A stretch of DNA of 64,000 nucleotides from Spirochaetae bacterium HGW-Spirochaetae-2 (GTDB lineage Bacteria; Spirochaetota; Spirochaetia; Sphaerochaetales; Sphaerochaetaceae). The DNA is taken from NCBI GenBank assembly GCA_002839355.1, contig PGXW01000011.1, positions 1 to 64,000 on the forward strand. Reading direction: 5' to 3'. The notes beneath the pieces are model-generated. The model made no database searches. It had not been told where the DNA came from and was given only the letters and a program-made list of their open reading frames with translations. The position numbers and the translations under genes were made by a program. Numbering within the stretch: position 1 is the first letter of the stretch; every line of letters begins with the position of its first letter. Of the stretch, positions 4,599 to 61,576 are shown one piece after another.

Positions 4599-4630
4599 AA
4601 CTGGAGGCGGTACAACCGGATTGTGCCGCC

Positions 4631-4683
4631 TTGTTGCATTTTACGAATTTTCACTGTATTGCGCTCCTGCTTTGTTGCATTTT
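4631..4683 (+). promoter_or_regulatory. Direct repeats TTGTTGCATTTT, 41 bp apart, upstream of the pur promoter
   Basis: TTGTTGCATTTT occurs at 4631-4642 and again at 4672-4683, directly before the -35 box. A related ATGTTGCAT lies at 4733-4741 and the inverse CGCAACAAA at 4715-4723. Spacing of about four helical turns suggests a bound regulator, which is not identified. Confidence 0.35.
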
Positions 4684-4712
4684 TTGACAAAAAATGTATA
4701 TATGTCTGGTAT
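4684..4712 (+). promoter_or_regulatory. Probable promoter of the purine operon
   Basis: TTGACA (4684-4689), 17-bp spacer, TGGTAT (4707-4712). The -35 is perfect and the -10 is weak. This would give a leader of about 220 nt before purL. Confidence 0.45.
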
Positions 4713-4753
4713 GTCGCAACAAAGGGGATTTCATGTTGCATAACAGCTATCGG

Positions 4754-4808
4754 GGCCATTGTGTACAAATTTCCATGGGGGAATCTTGTATGGCCGCGAT
4801 GTATCGCG
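4754..4808 (+). promoter_or_regulatory. Structured purL leader RNA, possible riboswitch or attenuator
   Basis: GGCCAT (4754-4759) pairs with ATGGCC (4790-4795). Inside this are ACAA/TTGT and ATTTCC/GGGAAT around an ATGG loop, with bulges. The last base of that stem begins a second hairpin, CGCGA-TGTA-TCGCG (4795-4808). A terminator follows at 4827. The arrangement between promoter and terminator is typical of a ligand- or protein-controlled leader, but I recognise no purine, PRPP, ZTP or glycine aptamer consensus. Confidence 0.5.
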
Positions 4809-4826
4809 TCGTCTGCGTGTACTTGC

Positions 4827-4865
4827 CGAGCATTCCGGTGTCTTCCGGAGTGCTCGTTTTTTTTT
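4827..4865 (+). terminator. Intrinsic terminator inside the pur leader (attenuator)
   Basis: CGAGCATTCCGG, loop TGTCTT, CCGGAGTGCTCG and nine Ts; one G-U pair in a 12-bp stem. It lies 76 bp upstream of the purL start on the same strand, so it must be bypassed for the operon to be expressed. Confidence 0.85.
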
Positions 4866-4941
4866 CCTGGTAAACAGCCCGATCGGCACGGGGAAAGCAA
4901 AGATTGGAATAGTATAGACCACCATAAAAAGGAACCGATAC

Positions 4942-7254
4942 ATGGAAGGAACCGAGCAATTCGATATCAATGGAATGGACAATGCGGAAGTTGAACGGCT
5001 GATGCACCAGCTGCGTACGGGACTGACCGTCTCGGAAGCCAGGGACTTGCAGGAGCGCATCCTTGGCAGGCAACCGACACTCGCCGAGTTGATCCTCTTC
5101 GGTATAGAGGGTTCCGAACACTGCTCCTACAAAAGTAGTCGTCCGTATCTCAAACTCTTTCCCACCGATGGACCGGAGGTCATCATAGGTGCGAAGGAAG
5201 ATGCCGGAATCATACGGGTGGCACGGGACAACGAGGGAAACGGCTATGCCATAGTACTCAGCCACGAATCACACAACCACCCTTCCCAGATTGTACCGTA
5301 TGAAGGGGCCGCAACCGGAATCGGGGGCAATATCCGCGATGTCTGCTGCATGGGAGCACGGGTTGTCGCACTTGCGGACGACCTTCGGTTCGGCGACATC
5401 CGCGATACCCGCAACAAGTGGTTGCTGGAACAGGTGGTGGCGGGAATAGCCGGATACGGAAACCCGGTGGGGGTTCCGAATATCGGAGGAGGACTCCAGT
5501 TCGACCCCGGATACAACGGAAACTGCCTGGTTACGGTAGTTACATTGGGAGCCATGCGGGAAGCCGACATACTGCATTCCCATGCACCGCAGGGCGCCGA
5601 TGGCTACGATTTGATCCTCGTGGGAAAACCTACCGACAACAGCGGGTTCGGGGGAGCCAGTTTCGCAAGCTTCAACTTGTCCGAAGGGGAAGTCGAAGCC
5701 AACAAGGGTGCTGTACAGGAACCGAATGCATTCTTGGGCAGACATCTGATCCATGCCACCGACGAACTGGTGGGTATCCTCCGTGAGAAACAGCTGATCG
5801 ACAAGGTCGCGTGCAAAGACTTGGGGGCGGGAGGAATTGCCTGTGCCAGCGTCGAGCTTGCCGATGGCGGCGGATACGGTGCGATCGTCGATATCGATGC
5901 TGTGCATACAGCCGATCCCACCCTTCCCCCCCATGTGATCCTCTGCGCGGAAACGCAGGAACGGTACCTGTGGGTCTCACCACGCGAGATCACACCTTTG
6001 ATCCTCAACCACTTCAACGACACATTCGCACTTCCCGAAGTCTCCCACAATGCCCGGGCGACCGTAATCGGTTCCATCACAGCCCTTCCCGATTTCGTCG
6101 TGACCGCGAAAGGCGAGACGTTGGTGCATGCGAAGGCTTCCGATGTCACCAAGGGGTTTCTGTACCACCGGCCTGTGGGCGAACTCCCTCCCCCGCCTCA
6201 AGAGCCTTCGTTTCCCGGCCCCCTGGACTTGCAGTCGCTTTGGCTGTCGATGTTGGCACATGAGAATATCGCAAGCAGGGCCATGGTATTCAACTCCTAC
6301 GACAAACAGGTGCAGTCCCTCGTCGAGATCGAAGCGGGAGCATCCGATGCGGGAATCATACGGCCGTTCGATGACATCGGCTATCCCGAGGAGCTCAAGG
6401 ACCTGGGAATATCGTTGACCTGCGACCAGAACCCCCGCTTCAATACCATCGACCCCTATCGGGGAGCGGTCCTTGCCGTTCTCGAATCGTATGCCAATAC
6501 GGTTGCCTCGGGAGCACAACCGATCGCAATCTCCGATTGCCTGTGTTACGGCAACCCCGAATATCCCGACAGCATGCGGCAATTCGCAGAGGGCTGCCGG
6601 GGTGTGGCCCACGCGGCGACGGTCCTAGGGCTCCCGGTAATCGCCGGGAATGTCTCGTTGTACAACGAATCGGAGCAAGGCTCGATCCCGCCCAGTCCCA
6701 TGATTTCCATGCTCGGTCGGTTGGAGCATGCCGGTAAAGCCCTTTCCATGCGATTCAAGCAGAAAAACTCCAGCATTCTTCTCGTCGGACAGCGGAAAGC
6801 CGAATGCGGTGGCAGCATCTACTATTCCATGCTCGGCTCACTCGGCAACAGCTTGCCTTCACCCGACCTGGACGAGTTCAAGGCGATTGGAACTCTGATA
6901 CGGGAACTGGCACAAGAAGCATGTATCCTTGCCTGCCACGATATCTCCGAAGGTGGCTTGGCTGTAGCGGTCTCGGAAATGGCCATGTCAGCCCAAATCG
7001 GGTGTCGCCTCACCATCGAATCGGAGCTCAGAAGCGATTTCCTGTTGTTCTCCGAAACTCCCGGTTTCGTGCTGGAGATCCCCGATTCGGAAACCGCACA
7101 GGTACTGGCACGTTTCGAGGCACTTGGGATATGGTGCCGGACAATCGGCGAAACCTGCACACAGCCTGTGATCGCCTTCAACAATATCGTTTCCATCCCC
7201 CTGGAATCGGCTACCCAAGCATGGATGTCGGGACTACGGGAAAAAACAACCTGA
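4942..7254 (+). CDS. purL: Phosphoribosylformylglycinamidine synthase II (PurL, small type)
   Basis: PurL is the ATP-dependent synthetase subunit that converts FGAR to FGAM with ammonia from PurQ, helped by PurS. The 770-residue protein has the two tandem AIRS-like halves: GIEGSEHCSYKSSRP and SHESHNHPSQIVPYEGAATG near the N-terminus, GFGGASFASF, and DQNPRFNTIDPYRGAVLAV with SDCLCYGNPEYPD in the second half. AAGGA lies 8 nt before the ATG. It heads the purine operon behind a structured leader; the next gene begins 1 nt after its stop. Confidence 0.95.
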   Translation: MEGTEQFDINGMDNAEVERLMHQLRTGLTVSEARDLQERILGRQPTLAELILFGIEGSEHCSYKSSRPYLKLFPTDGPEVIIGAKEDAGIIRVARDNEGNGYAIVLSHESHNHPSQIVPYEGAATGIGGNIRDVCCMGARVVALADDLRFGDIRDTRNKWLLEQVVAGIAGYGNPVGVPNIGGGLQFDPGYNGNCLVTVVTLGAMREADILHSHAPQGADGYDLILVGKPTDNSGFGGASFASFNLSEGEVEANKGAVQEPNAFLGRHLIHATDELVGILREKQLIDKVACKDLGAGGIACASVELADGGGYGAIVDIDAVHTADPTLPPHVILCAETQERYLWVSPREITPLILNHFNDTFALPEVSHNARATVIGSITALPDFVVTAKGETLVHAKASDVTKGFLYHRPVGELPPPPQEPSFPGPLDLQSLWLSMLAHENIASRAMVFNSYDKQVQSLVEIEAGASDAGIIRPFDDIGYPEELKDLGISLTCDQNPRFNTIDPYRGAVLAVLESYANTVASGAQPIAISDCLCYGNPEYPDSMRQFAEGCRGVAHAATVLGLPVIAGNVSLYNESEQGSIPPSPMISMLGRLEHAGKALSMRFKQKNSSILLVGQRKAECGGSIYYSMLGSLGNSLPSPDLDEFKAIGTLIRELAQEACILACHDISEGGLAVAVSEMAMSAQIGCRLTIESELRSDFLLFSETPGFVLEIPDSETAQVLARFEALGIWCRTIGETCTQPVIAFNNIVSIPLESATQAWMSGLREKTT

Positions 7255-29438: not shown

Positions 29439-29592
29439 ATGAATGGTATCGCAACCCCAGGGCAAGCCCTGGACCCGGGAGGCTTCGCCTCCGCTGCCGC
29501 CCCATGGGGCGGGGTATCTCACCCTACGTTCCCTGCACTTACTCGGTAATGGACCAATAGTAATTGTTCCGCTACCCTCGTTTCGTTGGGGA
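29439..29592 (+). repeat. Dispersed palindromic repeat, copy A (decayed)
   Basis: The left half is intact: ATGAATGGTATC, then hairpins CCAGGGCAAGCCCTGG, GGAGGCTTCGCCTCC and GCCCCATGGGGC. The right half (CCTGCACTTACTCGGTAATGG... to CGTTTCGTTGGGG) is a diverged version of copies B-D. ATGAATGGT(A/C)TC stands at both ends (29439 and 29593). Confidence 0.85.
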
Positions 29593-29606
29593 ATGAATGG
29601 TCTCGA

Positions 29607-51499: not shown

Positions 51500-52090
51500 A
51501 TCAAGATTTTCACCATATACGATACCCGACCTATCGAAGATGCATCGGTGTTGAACCCATGGTTCCGTCGAACCTGCAGGGCTGTGGTTGTCCACGAGGG
51601 GCGTATGGCCTTCTCCTATATGGCAAACCGCAGCCAATATGTCTTGCCCGGTGGAGGGATCGATCCCGGAGAGACGCCCCAGGAGTGTGCACAAAGGGAA
51701 TGCATGGAAGAATTGGGTTTGGGTATAACAGCATCCGAACCGGTGGGTATGGTACGGGAGTACTACGATGGTATCCTACGGTACGAGAACCTGTACCTGG
51801 AGGCAAAGCCGACTGGTCTTCGCGGCACACCCCAACGTACCGAGGAAGAGATCGGCCTCGGCATACAGGAACGCTGGTTGGATCTGCAATCAACCCGACC
51901 TACACTTCTACAGGCGCCGGCACATTTGATGCCGCACGAGTCTCAGACGGATCATGTGCAACGGGCGATCGCCAATTGCCATATGCGCGAATTGCTGGGA
52001 ATCTCGACAGTGCTCGGTTGGCCATGGGAAACCATTGCCGAAAGTCGGACCAGGATTGCCGGTATAGCAGTGGAATTTAAAATAATCTGA
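51500..52090 (+). CDS. Nudix hydrolase, probable ATC start
   Basis: The Nudix box fits perfectly: GGIDPGETPQECAQ followed by RECMEELG (Gx5Ex7REx2EExG). It hydrolyses nucleoside diphosphates linked to another group; substrate unknown. Reading in frame directly after the rlmN stop gives GSP then IKIFTIYDTRPIEDASVL, a plausible N-terminus, but there is no ATG, GTG or TTG before GTG 51548. GAGGT (51489-51493) sits 6 nt before ATC at 51500, so ATC is proposed. The stop codon is formed where the palindromic repeat B begins (T plus GA of the repeat), so the C-terminus may have been changed. Confidence 0.75.
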   Translation: MKIFTIYDTRPIEDASVLNPWFRRTCRAVVVHEGRMAFSYMANRSQYVLPGGGIDPGETPQECAQRECMEELGLGITASEPVGMVREYYDGILRYENLYLEAKPTGLRGTPQRTEEEIGLGIQERWLDLQSTRPTLLQAPAHLMPHESQTDHVQRAIANCHMRELLGISTVLGWPWETIAESRTRIAGIAVEFKII

Positions 52091-52334
52091 TTGCCAAACG
52101 AAGTGAGTGGAAAGGGGCCATGCAATGGCCACTCTCCCGAGCGAGTGCAGGCAACGTGAGGTGACCGAAGGAACCTTTCATGCCAAACGAAGTGAGTGGA
52201 AAGGGGCCATGCAATGGCCACTCTCCCGAGCGAGTGCAGGCAACGTGAGGATCCATACCTCGCCCCTTGGGGCGGGAAAGGAGGCGAAGCCTCCCGGGGC
52301 CAGGGCTTGCCCTGGGGGTATTGATACCTCTCAT
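52089..52334 (-). repeat. Dispersed palindromic repeat, copy B, one full and one internally deleted unit
   Basis: On the minus strand a full unit runs from ATGAGAGGTATC (52334) through the hairpins to TTTGGCA, and a shortened unit follows directly. The shared 70 bp (52092-52161 and 52181-52250) are identical, 89 bp apart. The last hairpin reads GGCCAT-TGC-ATGGCC, where copies C and D have GACCA/TGGTC. Confidence 0.9.
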
Positions 52335-56871: not shown

Positions 56872-57169
56872 TTAGATTAGACATCGTTATTAGTCCGAAA
56901 TTAGGATGCCCGGAAATCTTCATACCAATCAACCCCCTTGTATTATTTATTAGAAACTACTTCGATGCAAGTTTCTGTCGGGCCTTGCCATGCGTCAATT
57001 GCCATATAGATCAAATCATAGCAAAAAGCAAATCACAATCGTGATGCCAATCAAGCAGTATGTTTTTAGAATAGTCGAGAGCCGACAGAAAGGTTGCATT
57101 TTATTAAAATCGTGAATATACTTGAAGCGTATTAGTTCGTAAAATACGAAATAATAAATGGAGGTGTAT
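56872..57169. other. AT-rich intergenic region before the ATPase gene
   Basis: No gene, tRNA or clear promoter is visible. Base composition changes sharply to AT-rich here and stays so to about 58.95 kb, which marks the left boundary of a probably acquired segment. Confidence 0.6.
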
Positions 57170-58279
57170 ATGATTGTGATGAACCTGAAACTTAACAATA
57201 TCTATGCGTTCAATAATTTTGAAATCAGCATGTCTTATCCAAAAAAGATTGTGAATTCAAATATTGAAGAAGAATTCTTGTACGAAAGACCAAACTTCAG
57301 ATATAAAAAACTCATTGTTCTCATGGGTGCCAATGCATCAGGAAAGACTACATTGGGAAAAGCCCTTAAAGGAATCTTCAACTTCATTTCAAAAAAAACT
57401 CCCGATCCATTGGTAAGTTGTATCAACGACAACACAAAAACTGCTTCATTCATGATCGACTTCATTACCGACACAAATTCCAATCGGTTGTATCGCGTGG
57501 CAGGTACTATTCGACCACCCAAAACCGATTCCTACAAAGAAGAAGATATAGACGTCGCAGTGAAACATGTTGCTATCAACAAGAATGATAGCTATGAAAC
57601 ATGTATATCCAAGTTGGATGTCCTCACCGATAAAAAAGAATCCTATATCAAAGCACTGGATGAGGTTGAAAATTTCGGCTGGAACTTTTCATTTCCAAGT
57701 CAGGAGAACACCATCAGATCACTCAAGGATCTACATAAGGTTGGGTTCAAGGATATGCTCGAGATTATACTTTCATCCCTCGATCCCTCAGTCCAGGAAG
57801 TTGTTGAAGCCCGGGATATTGAAGATTCGTACATCATAAAATTGAGCGGCCACGACTTGATTCTGAAAGACGGTAAAATTCTGAATGGGGAGATCCTCTC
57901 AAGCGGCACGAGATCTGGAATCGATATCGCGATCCTACTTACCTCAATCACTTCAAGACAAAATGGATTCTATTATTGTGATGAGAAATTTTCGTACATA
58001 CATAGTGATATGGAAAAAGAGATACTGGTAAAAATGGTTGGGAAATTGGGGCATAACGAACAATTATTTTTTACAACCCATAATTCCGACATACTGGATA
58101 TGGAATTCCCGAAACATACATTTGTGTTCTTGAAGAAAAGAATCATCAATGGAAGAAGTGAGGTGCAGTGCGTCTATGCGGACGACTATCTGAAAAGGAA
58201 TACAGATTCATTGAGAAGAGCAGTTGAGAATGACTTGTTCTCGATAGCTCCTAGCGTAAGCCGCATCGATCGTCTGTAA
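57170..58279 (+). CDS. ABC/AAA-type ATPase of an OLD/RloA-like defence pair
   Basis: Motifs are Walker A LMGANASGKTTLGKAL, the signature ILSSGTRSGIDIAILL, a Walker-B-like FYYCDEKFSYIHSDMEKEIL and the H-loop LFFTTHNSDILDME. This is the order found in RloA, AriA and OLD-type ATPases that partner with nucleases in phage defence. GGAGGTG places the start at ATG 57170 (369 residues). The gene is AT-rich and codon use differs from its neighbours. The next gene, 14 bp downstream, is a small TOPRIM-like protein. Confidence 0.82.
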   Translation: MIVMNLKLNNIYAFNNFEISMSYPKKIVNSNIEEEFLYERPNFRYKKLIVLMGANASGKTTLGKALKGIFNFISKKTPDPLVSCINDNTKTASFMIDFITDTNSNRLYRVAGTIRPPKTDSYKEEDIDVAVKHVAINKNDSYETCISKLDVLTDKKESYIKALDEVENFGWNFSFPSQENTIRSLKDLHKVGFKDMLEIILSSLDPSVQEVVEARDIEDSYIIKLSGHDLILKDGKILNGEILSSGTRSGIDIAILLTSITSRQNGFYYCDEKFSYIHSDMEKEILVKMVGKLGHNEQLFFTTHNSDILDMEFPKHTFVFLKKRIINGRSEVQCVYADDYLKRNTDSLRRAVENDLFSIAPSVSRIDRL

Positions 58280-58293
58280 AGAGTGGGGTAAGA

Positions 58294-58948
58294 ATGAATC
58301 AGTATTACCAATATTATGTTGAAGGTGAAACAGAAGAGAAGATACTAGAGGTCCTAAAAACAGATTTCCGATGCATCATGCCGGGAAAAGTTAAGGTTTT
58401 CAATGTTATTGAAGAAAAGTTCTCACGCTCGAAATTGATTTCATTAAAACGTAAGACCAATGTAGTTTTGGTTTTTGATACTGACTCATCGGATTCATCG
58501 ACCCTACGAGCAAACATTAGTTTTCTTGAGGAACAATCGGTTGTAAGACAGGTGATCTGCATCCCACAAGTGAAAAACCTGGAAGAAGAATTGATCCGTT
58601 GCTGTAATATCAGGAAAATGAAAGGTATCATCACCCCCAGGGCAAGCCCTGGACCCAGGAGGCGTCGCCTCCTTTGCCTCTCCAAAGGACAAGGTACGGA
58701 TACTTACGTTGCCTGCACTCGCTCGGGAGAGTGACCACCTCATGGTCCCTTTCCACTCGCTTCGTTTGGCAATCAAAGAATTACTTTCAAGTAAATTTGA
58801 TTCAAACTTCAAGAATGATTTATGCAATTGCAACGGACTGATGGGTGCAATGCAAATACATGAATTCAATATGGAACTTTTCTGGTCGTCAGCACCATCG
58901 GGAGAATTTTCAAGTATCCCGAATAATTCGAATTCGATAAGACTTTAG
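58294..58948 (+). pseudogene. TOPRIM-like partner of the ATPase, interrupted by palindromic repeat C
   Basis: The N-terminus QYYVEGETEEKILEVL has the TOPRIM Glu and NVVLVFDTDSSDS the Asp-x-Asp pair, typical of the nuclease partners in ATPase-TOPRIM systems (PARIS, RloAB, OLD). After 108 codons the reading frame enters a copy of the repeat and stops at 58734. Downstream of the repeat the frame shifted by one continues (KELLSSKFDSNFKND to NSIRL) to 58948. Removing 157 bp joins both halves into a protein of about 165 residues. Whether the truncated product still works is unknown. Confidence 0.72.
58618..58774 (+). repeat. Dispersed palindromic repeat, copy C, 157 bp, inside the TOPRIM-like gene
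   Basis: Runs from ATGAAAGGTATC to TTTGGCAATC. Hairpins: CCAGGGCAAGCCCTGG, GGAGGCGTCGCCTCC, CACTC/GAGTG around GCTCGGGA, and GACCA/TGGTC. Closely similar to copies B and D. Confidence 0.9.
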
Positions 58949-59028
58949 ATTCCTCATCGAAAAGTATGAAACCTATACAATGAAAACTGCCTTGCATTCG
59001 CCGATGCTGGGCTGAACAATTCCAACTC

Positions 59029-60406: not shown

Positions 60407-61576
60407 TCACCAGGAACTGCCCAAAATCGGACGCAGCGAGATCTCTCCTGAACGCAAGTGCTGTACCGAACCGTCGGCAAGGCGCACCACAAGCGCACCA
60501 TCGTCGGCAATACCGGTGGCTTCCGCCTCGTACGAGACAGCGCCCTGTACCACCCGTACCCGATGACCGACCACCACCGAACGACGACGGTACTCCTCCA
60601 TGAAATGAAAGGTATCCCTACCCCAGGGCAAGGGGTGGACCCGGGAGGCTTCGCCTCCTTTCCCGCCCCAAGGGGCGAGGTATGAATCCTTACGTTGCCT
60701 GCACTCGCTCGGGAGAGTGACCATTCCATGGTCCGTGACCATTCCATGGTCCCTTTCCTCTCGCTCCGTTTGGCAATCGACCTGACCCATGTGGTCCACC
60801 ACAGCCAACAATTCCTCGACGATGCTCGCGGCCAATCGGTTCCTGGAAGCTTCGGGTGGCGCGGTGTCGACAAACAAGGCCCCCGCGATCCCCTGCAGCT
60901 CCTGGGGAAACCCTTCGGGCGATACCGTATGGTTCACCCCTATGCCGACCACCAGGCTCTCGATCCTCCCGGTCTCGAAACCGCTGATTCCTTCGGTCAG
61001 GATACCACAGACCTTGAGGGAATCGATCAGGATATCGTTGACCCACTTGATTCCCGCCCGACGGTCGCACATCCGTTCGATAGCCCGGCACACCGCGACA
61101 GCTGCACCAGAGGTGACCCGCAAAGCCATGGCCGTGTCCAATTCGGGGCGCAGGAGGACACTCACGTACAGGCCGCTATCGCTGGGCGAGAAGAAAGATT
61201 TTCCGTTGCGCCCTCGCCCCTCGGTCTGACGCCCGGCAACCACGACCGTGCCGTGGGGAGCACCATCCAAGGCCAATCGCTTCGCCTCGCCATTGGTGGA
61301 GCCGATGCTTTCATGGAAATGCAGGGGAAGATCGAGATAGCGCTTGTCGGTGAACGCCGAACGGATACCTTGCTCCGAGAGCACATCGCTACTCTCCGAC
61401 AGACGGTACCCGATCTTGGTCGAAGCCTCGATCGCATGTCCTGAAAGGCGCAAATCGTGGATCGCCCGCCACACGGCTGCCCGGGTGATCTGTAGTTGCC
61501 GTGCAATCTCCTCGCCCGAGATATGGGAACCCTTGCACTGTTCCAATAGAGCCAGGACCTGCTGTTTCGAAGACAT
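60407..61576 (-). CDS. birA: Bifunctional biotin ligase/repressor BirA with an in-frame repeat insertion
   Basis: Residues 1-65 form a winged helix (SGEEIARQLQITRAAVWRAIHDLR), then the ligase core: ESIGSTNGEAKRLA, VVVAGRQTEGRGRNGKSFFSP with the biotinyl-AMP loop, GIKWVNDILID and VVGIGVNHT. Residues 267-324 (58 residues) are encoded by palindromic repeat D, with no stop codon, just before the C-terminal SH3-like domain (FMEEYRRRSVVVGHRVRVV). Without them the protein would be 331 residues, the normal length. GGAGGAAGG precedes the ATG. It likely represses bioY through the operator at 61637. Whether the enlarged protein is active is not known. Confidence 0.88.
   Translation of the reverse strand: MSSKQQVLALLEQCKGSHISGEEIARQLQITRAAVWRAIHDLRLSGHAIEASTKIGYRLSESSDVLSEQGIRSAFTDKRYLDLPLHFHESIGSTNGEAKRLALDGAPHGTVVVAGRQTEGRGRNGKSFFSPSDSGLYVSVLLRPELDTAMALRVTSGAAVAVCRAIERMCDRRAGIKWVNDILIDSLKVCGILTEGISGFETGRIESLVVGIGVNHTVSPEGFPQELQGIAGALFVDTAPPEASRNRLAASIVEELLAVVDHMGQVDCQTEREERDHGMVTDHGMVTLPSECRQRKDSYLAPWGGKGGEASRVHPLPWGRDTFHFMEEYRRRSVVVGHRVRVVQGAVSYEAEATGIADDGALVVRLADGSVQHLRSGEISLRPILGSSW
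60605..60778 (+). repeat. Dispersed palindromic repeat, copy D, 174 bp, in frame inside birA
   Basis: Runs from ATGAAAGGTATC to TTTGGCAATC. It carries an 18-bp tandem duplication (GTGACCATTCCATGGTCC, twice) and one base less near the left end compared with copy C, giving 174 bp, which is 58 codons. The first hairpin is damaged (CAGGGCAAGGGGTGG). Confidence 0.9.

Follow-up and report, generated by a model that had tools for sequence, protein, structure and literature searches.

Among the AbiL-type and OLD-like ATPase-TOPRIM pairs, OLD is treated in the excerpted parts of PMC7049728, a paper on Ts OLD, which give E400/D455/D457 and E404/T506/E508 as the metal ligands of Bp OLD, describe K562 as crucial in catalysis, and report that each listed active-site mutation of P2 OLD, including K550A, abolished its lethal effect. 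Rickettsia palindromic elements (RPEs) are, in the excerpt of PMC10969869, dispersed palindromic repeats of ~150 bp that often lie in frame within protein genes, and the excerpt of PMC3733652 gives a CGTC end tag for those of R. conorii. The two subjects come together in the 64,000-bp window studied here, the whole stretch of DNA analysed from contig PGXW01000011.1 of Spirochaetae bacterium HGW-Spirochaetae-2 (genome G000), where the gene abiLii is split by an interspersed repeat and its remainder stands in another frame. Like the AbiL-type and OLD-like pairs, this locus combines an ATPase that matches the PADLOC AbiLi model with a partner that has TOPRIM-like motifs and a predicted fold that may be TOPRIM-like; unlike in those pairs, PADLOC models do not recognise the partner clearly, and it is broken.

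The ATPase gene (57158..58279, plus strand) is intact and encodes 373 aa, with a match to the PADLOC AbiLi model at E 1.7e-28 that classes it as AbiLi-type and a match to Pfam AAA_21 at E 1.2e-7. ORF reading and the homologue alignment place the 5' part of abiLii at 58294..58617 on the plus strand, as 108 codons that include the motifs YVEGETEE, FDTDS and NLEEE. The 3' part (58772..58948, same strand) follows in a shifted frame and comprises 58 codons, with an invariant Lys and a conserved Trp, closed by TAG at 58946-58948; without the repeat the gene thus totals 166 codons. As it now stands, the ORF (58294..58734) encodes 146 aa, 108 of them native and 38 read from the repeat, and ends with the TGA at 58732-58734. 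These readings agree with the initial annotation, which had the gene open for 108 codons, running into the repeat and stopping at 58734, with a downstream frame offset by one base and a restored length of about 165 codons.

That annotation also took the gene to be an interrupted TOPRIM-type partner of the ATPase. This is borne out by homologues in Spirochaetes, Firmicutes and other groups, all of which are uninterrupted at this point. The two parts of abiLii were entered separately into the search and the alignment, and in all 65 homologue rows they abut with zero residues between them. Sixty-three of these rows come from 80 AbiLi loci and the other two are L058 and L059; L058 and L134 are apparently one gene, and the genes of L062 and L063 are also broken, though at other points. 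None of the 65 has the same stop and downstream sequence in the absence of the repeat. The 80 named loci were brought by an alignment of three ATPases, three of them being labelled Sphaerochaeta (L061-L063), and a profile count finds the partner ORF conserved in one frame at 59 of the 80, the other 21 not being a tally of broken genes, as contig ends, frameshifts and loci with no match are among them. A search with the 5' part found one-frame genes of 170 and 166 aa beside AbiLi-like ATPases in G251 and G148, respectively, and matches in 4 of 296 genomes of the phylum, counting its own genome and one weak match; no plasmid homologue of this part was found. Model searches recognise the family poorly: neither piece of abiLii matches a PADLOC model, four of five abiLii homologues are likewise without a PADLOC match while the fifth has weak matches to GajB and Cas6b, and no Pfam model scores above its cut-off for the abiLii protein.

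The repeat copy in abiLii is complete (ATGAAAGG...GGCAAT; 58618..58773, plus strand; nhmmer, model positions 1-156), with AT flanks at 58618-58619 and 58772-58773. The unit inserted is 154 bp, corresponding to the element plus one AT (58618-58771 or, equivalently, 58620-58773); we adopt this length because the empty sites of two other copies in the sister genome G001 show that the element and one AT were added. The 157 bp proposed earlier (58618-58774) overshoots by 3 bp, or one codon, when set against the homologues, but the accompanying frame argument stands since 154 and 157 both leave a remainder of one when divided by three. The abiLii site itself is not comparable in G001, because the whole defence pair is absent there: the region of the ATPase/TOPRIM pair (56872..59015, plus strand) has no match, and only 24 bp lie between the flanking matches.

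One of these two empty sites belongs to a copy at 60605..60777 (plus strand) that lies in frame within birA (minus strand, 60407-61576), where Pfam places the BPL catalytic domain on one side of it and BPL_C on the other. This insertion amounts to 171 bp, or 57 codons, which include an 18-bp tandem duplication, and the sequence of G001 runs straight through the site. The other is in the gene for an AraC/GyrI-type regulator of G000 (L027:1075-2055), where a short-form copy contributes 30 codons in frame between the HTH_18 and GyrI-like domains and which is uninterrupted in G001, again an exact empty site. Both are in-frame linker insertions, which the copy in abiLii is not. Among ten ORFs that run through the repeat and were scanned with Pfam, this regulator is the only one with domains on both sides, eight having no domains and one having a domain on a single side. 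A count of split genes from open frames proved too noisy in this G+C-rich genome and was set aside, and we found no length selection for multiples of three, the complete copies being divided 14, 14 and 16 over the three remainders.

Shared ends, AT flanks, covarying hairpins and exact empty sites establish the repeat as a real mobile family. That the sequence in abiLii is a genuine copy, as first annotated, is confirmed by the nhmmer match over 58618-58773 (E 2.2e-49) and by 44 blastn matches in its own genome, to which 51 in G001 and one partial match in G002 can be added; in all, 8 of 81 genomes drawn from the host's family contain a match. Complete copies, meaning those that match the model from its first to its last position, also number 44 (42 from G000 and G001, plus L062 and L063); all of them start and end with AT, and most are 154-158 bp long. 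There is also a short form (~91 bp) in which both ends are preserved and which is found in tandem with a spacing of ~89 bp. Within the window, further copies are found at 52090..52334 (minus strand), where a complete element and one short-form element stand in tandem, and at 29439..29594 (plus strand), which belongs to the ATGAATGG...GGGGAAT subfamily. In the flanks of the 44 complete copies the first three 3' bases are mostly C (27), A (38) and A (27), and the 5' base is mostly A (33), which gives TTGAT followed by T as the preferred target on the opposite strand. The six helices drawn on 41 copies are paired in 93.0% of cells, and in 12 of 33 pairs both partners have changed, where shuffled alignments give a mean of 5.3 (0 of 500 shuffles as high) and slid versions 3-5; these double-change cells fall mostly in the right-hand hairpin. 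A conserved RNA was considered and rejected, no Rfam family reaching its gathering score. The literature on Sphaerochaeta repeats and insertion sequences, at the level of listings, contains no apparent description of the repeat. The family appears to be new; the kind of element is already known. In genome G349 (L211, L237, L245 and L251), most of the listed copies have similar scores against the query (82-83%), a hint of a recent burst in that genome.

By description, the repeat resembles the RPEs as given in the excerpts above in its size, palindromes and dispersal, and the copies in birA and the AraC-type regulator parallel their in-frame gene insertions; it differs from them in host phylum, in having the ends ATGAAAGG and GGCAAT in place of a CGTC tag, and in that the abiLii copy is out of frame. 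It resembles REP/REPIN sequences in being palindromic and non-autonomous, in its many diverged copies and tandem arrays, and in the presence of RAYT-like genes in the genome; it differs from them in its longer unit and in having the same two ends where they have a GTAG tag. Two RAYT-like Y1 genes are present in G000. The stop codon of the RAYT-like Y1 gene in L184 (906-1863) overlaps the left end of a repeat copy lying directly 3' of it, and in L211 a copy is found ~550 bp from an IS200-like gene. We reject the idea that RAYT genes and the repeat are generally linked, as no copy besides those in L184 and L211 was found at E <= 1 among the Y1/RAYT loci L181-L234; in the stretches searched, the other RAYT of G000 and the RAYT relatives of other genomes have no repeat nearby at this threshold. 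A comparison of the left end (ATGAAAGGTATC) with the right end reversed (ATTGCCAAACG), made by eye on the alignment, shows no terminal inverted repeats beyond the AT. For this reason, and because the hairpins covary, we think a single-strand Y1 mechanism more probable than a DDE transposase. The repeat could instead be an ordinary MITE, moved by a DDE enzyme that duplicates two bases, AT, at its target; the AT that flanks each of the 44 complete copies on either side and the empty sites with one AT fit such a duplication, but the ends of the element (ATGAAAGG and TTTGGCAAT) show no inverted repeats and its interior has covarying hairpins instead, so that we consider this reading possible but doubtful. 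Were it true, the mechanism of insertion would change and the effect on abiLii would not.

The consequences for the protein were considered on a structure predicted for the intact homologue in L061 (mean pLDDT 93.2). In VIA-align, a small TOPRIM protein is among its best rows (Z 7.1, rmsd 3.3, 104 aligned) and OLD C-terminal regions also appear near the top (Z 7.0, rmsd 4.1, 144 aligned), all Z values being below 8, a level that VIA itself terms common; in Foldseek, no PDB entry matched at E <= 0.001. The abiLii family shows the TOPRIM/OLD-type motifs, namely a Glu, an Asp-x-Asp and a later Glu, and residues E12, D64, D66, E99 and E101 (L061 numbering) are invariant in 20 of 20 aligned homologues. 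The split falls after residue 110, so that these five residues precede it and the invariant K126, L139 and W150 follow it. The truncated product therefore retains the acidic residues that resemble metal ligands and lacks the last 58 residues, including the invariant lysine. K126 may be the counterpart of the OLD catalytic lysine, judging from its order in the sequence and its invariance and not from a superposition. Because the insertion lies between the last metal-ligand-like residue and this lysine, the nuclease function of the interrupted gene is likely to have been lost. The suggestion in the initial annotation that the pair has lost its effector thus holds as regards truncation before the invariant lysine, and inactivity itself is its likely outcome.

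The explanation that best combines these observations, and which we regard as very probable, is that a small mobile repeat inserted at an AT split abiLii and left an intact ATPase with a dead nuclease subunit. In such a scenario, a non-autonomous, hairpin-rich repeat with a core of ~152 bp and no terminal inverted repeats would have entered an AT in abiLii, probably by a single-strand (Y1/RAYT-like) mechanism. The gene is a low-G+C target rich in the preferred site (on the other strand, TTGAT then T): its 5' part has 37% G+C and the window 54%, and TTGAT/ATCAA occurs at 9.3 per kb in that part and at 2.1 per kb in the window. Because the 154 bp added are not a multiple of three, translation would continue for 38 codons into the repeat and stop, and the product would keep the predicted TOPRIM core and the metal-ligand-like residues while missing the C-terminal part with the invariant lysine. 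The outcome would be an intact ATPase and, most likely, a dead nuclease subunit.

A truncated or two-piece protein could still be active. The repeat supplies not only the stop but also a Shine-Dalgarno-like GGGAGAG (58725-58731), 10 nt upstream of an ATG at 58742 that lies inside the repeat, 8 nt past the TGA, and shares the frame of the ORF 58709-58948; as read from the sequence, a possible restart ORF of 68 aa (58742..58948, plus strand) is in frame with the 3' part. Given that other copies are tolerated within genes (birA and the AraC regulator), abiLii might be proposed to function as two polypeptides, but no sign of selection supports this, the restart can be regarded as a by-product of the repeat palindrome, the split cuts through a compact predicted fold, and L062 and L063 have plain inactivating lesions in the same gene; we hold a functional two-polypeptide abiLii to be very unlikely. 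Less credible still is an artefact, whether from short reads of a 150-bp repeat misjoined in a draft genome of 86 contigs, with some copies near contig ends, or from an insertion present in part of the population, since both flanks align to homologues on either side of one gene, so that the join connects true neighbours, and the six private substitutions of this copy are unexpected for a misplaced read.

Where the initial annotation went too far was in dating the insertion as recent. The abiLii copy is 10.9% divergent from the consensus, and likewise from its nearest sampled relative, whereas for three copies at sites common to G000 and G001, the pairs with good matches on either side, the difference is 3.2, 5.7 and 7.1%. 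Its six private letters occur in none of the 33 other main-family copies, 26 of which are as close to the consensus as it is, or closer. The open flanking frames (~500 bp) give no date either, as few stop codons would be expected at such divergence. An unsampled source copy could account for the divergence of the abiLii copy.

The gene is damaged in other Sphaerochaeta as well. In L062 (Sphaerochaeta sp. MAG3; 4622-5288), abiLii has TAG as its codon 7 and is interrupted near codon 28 by a repeat copy (4703-4858) that lies in the opposite orientation; this insertion is at another site and is independent of that in the window. In L063 (S. halotolerans), abiLii is cut short by a TGA ahead of the conserved tryptophan, and in L061 the gene is open. 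The partner gene is therefore broken at three of the four Sphaerochaeta AbiL loci (the window and L061-L063), twice through the repeat, and the ATPase is open at all four; dS was saturated in the comparison meant for selection on the ATPase. Repeated hits need no special targeting, as abiLii is low in G+C and rich in targets, and with ~50 copies a rough hand estimate gives a few per cent per genome, so that hits in two species are not striking.

A broader reading, which we offer only tentatively and think improbable as a whole, is that a hairpin element like the RPEs, moved by Y1/RAYT and targeting TTGAT, is spread throughout Sphaerochaeta, adding in-frame linkers to core genes and repeatedly inactivating the AbiL effector while the ATPase half stays open. 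If so, a costly effector would be lost time and again owing to its toxicity. The small mobile repeats described here from Sphaerochaeta and its relatives form a new and well-bounded family, whose exact empty sites in a sister genome make target choice and the mobilising enzyme testable. The present data also advise caution, in that where a defence pair is annotated on the strength of an intact ATPase, the pair may be dead. Separately, in Treponema vincentii OMZ 806 (L137:3501-5091), the AbiLi match has stops when read in one frame, and abiLii lies in two overlapping ORFs.
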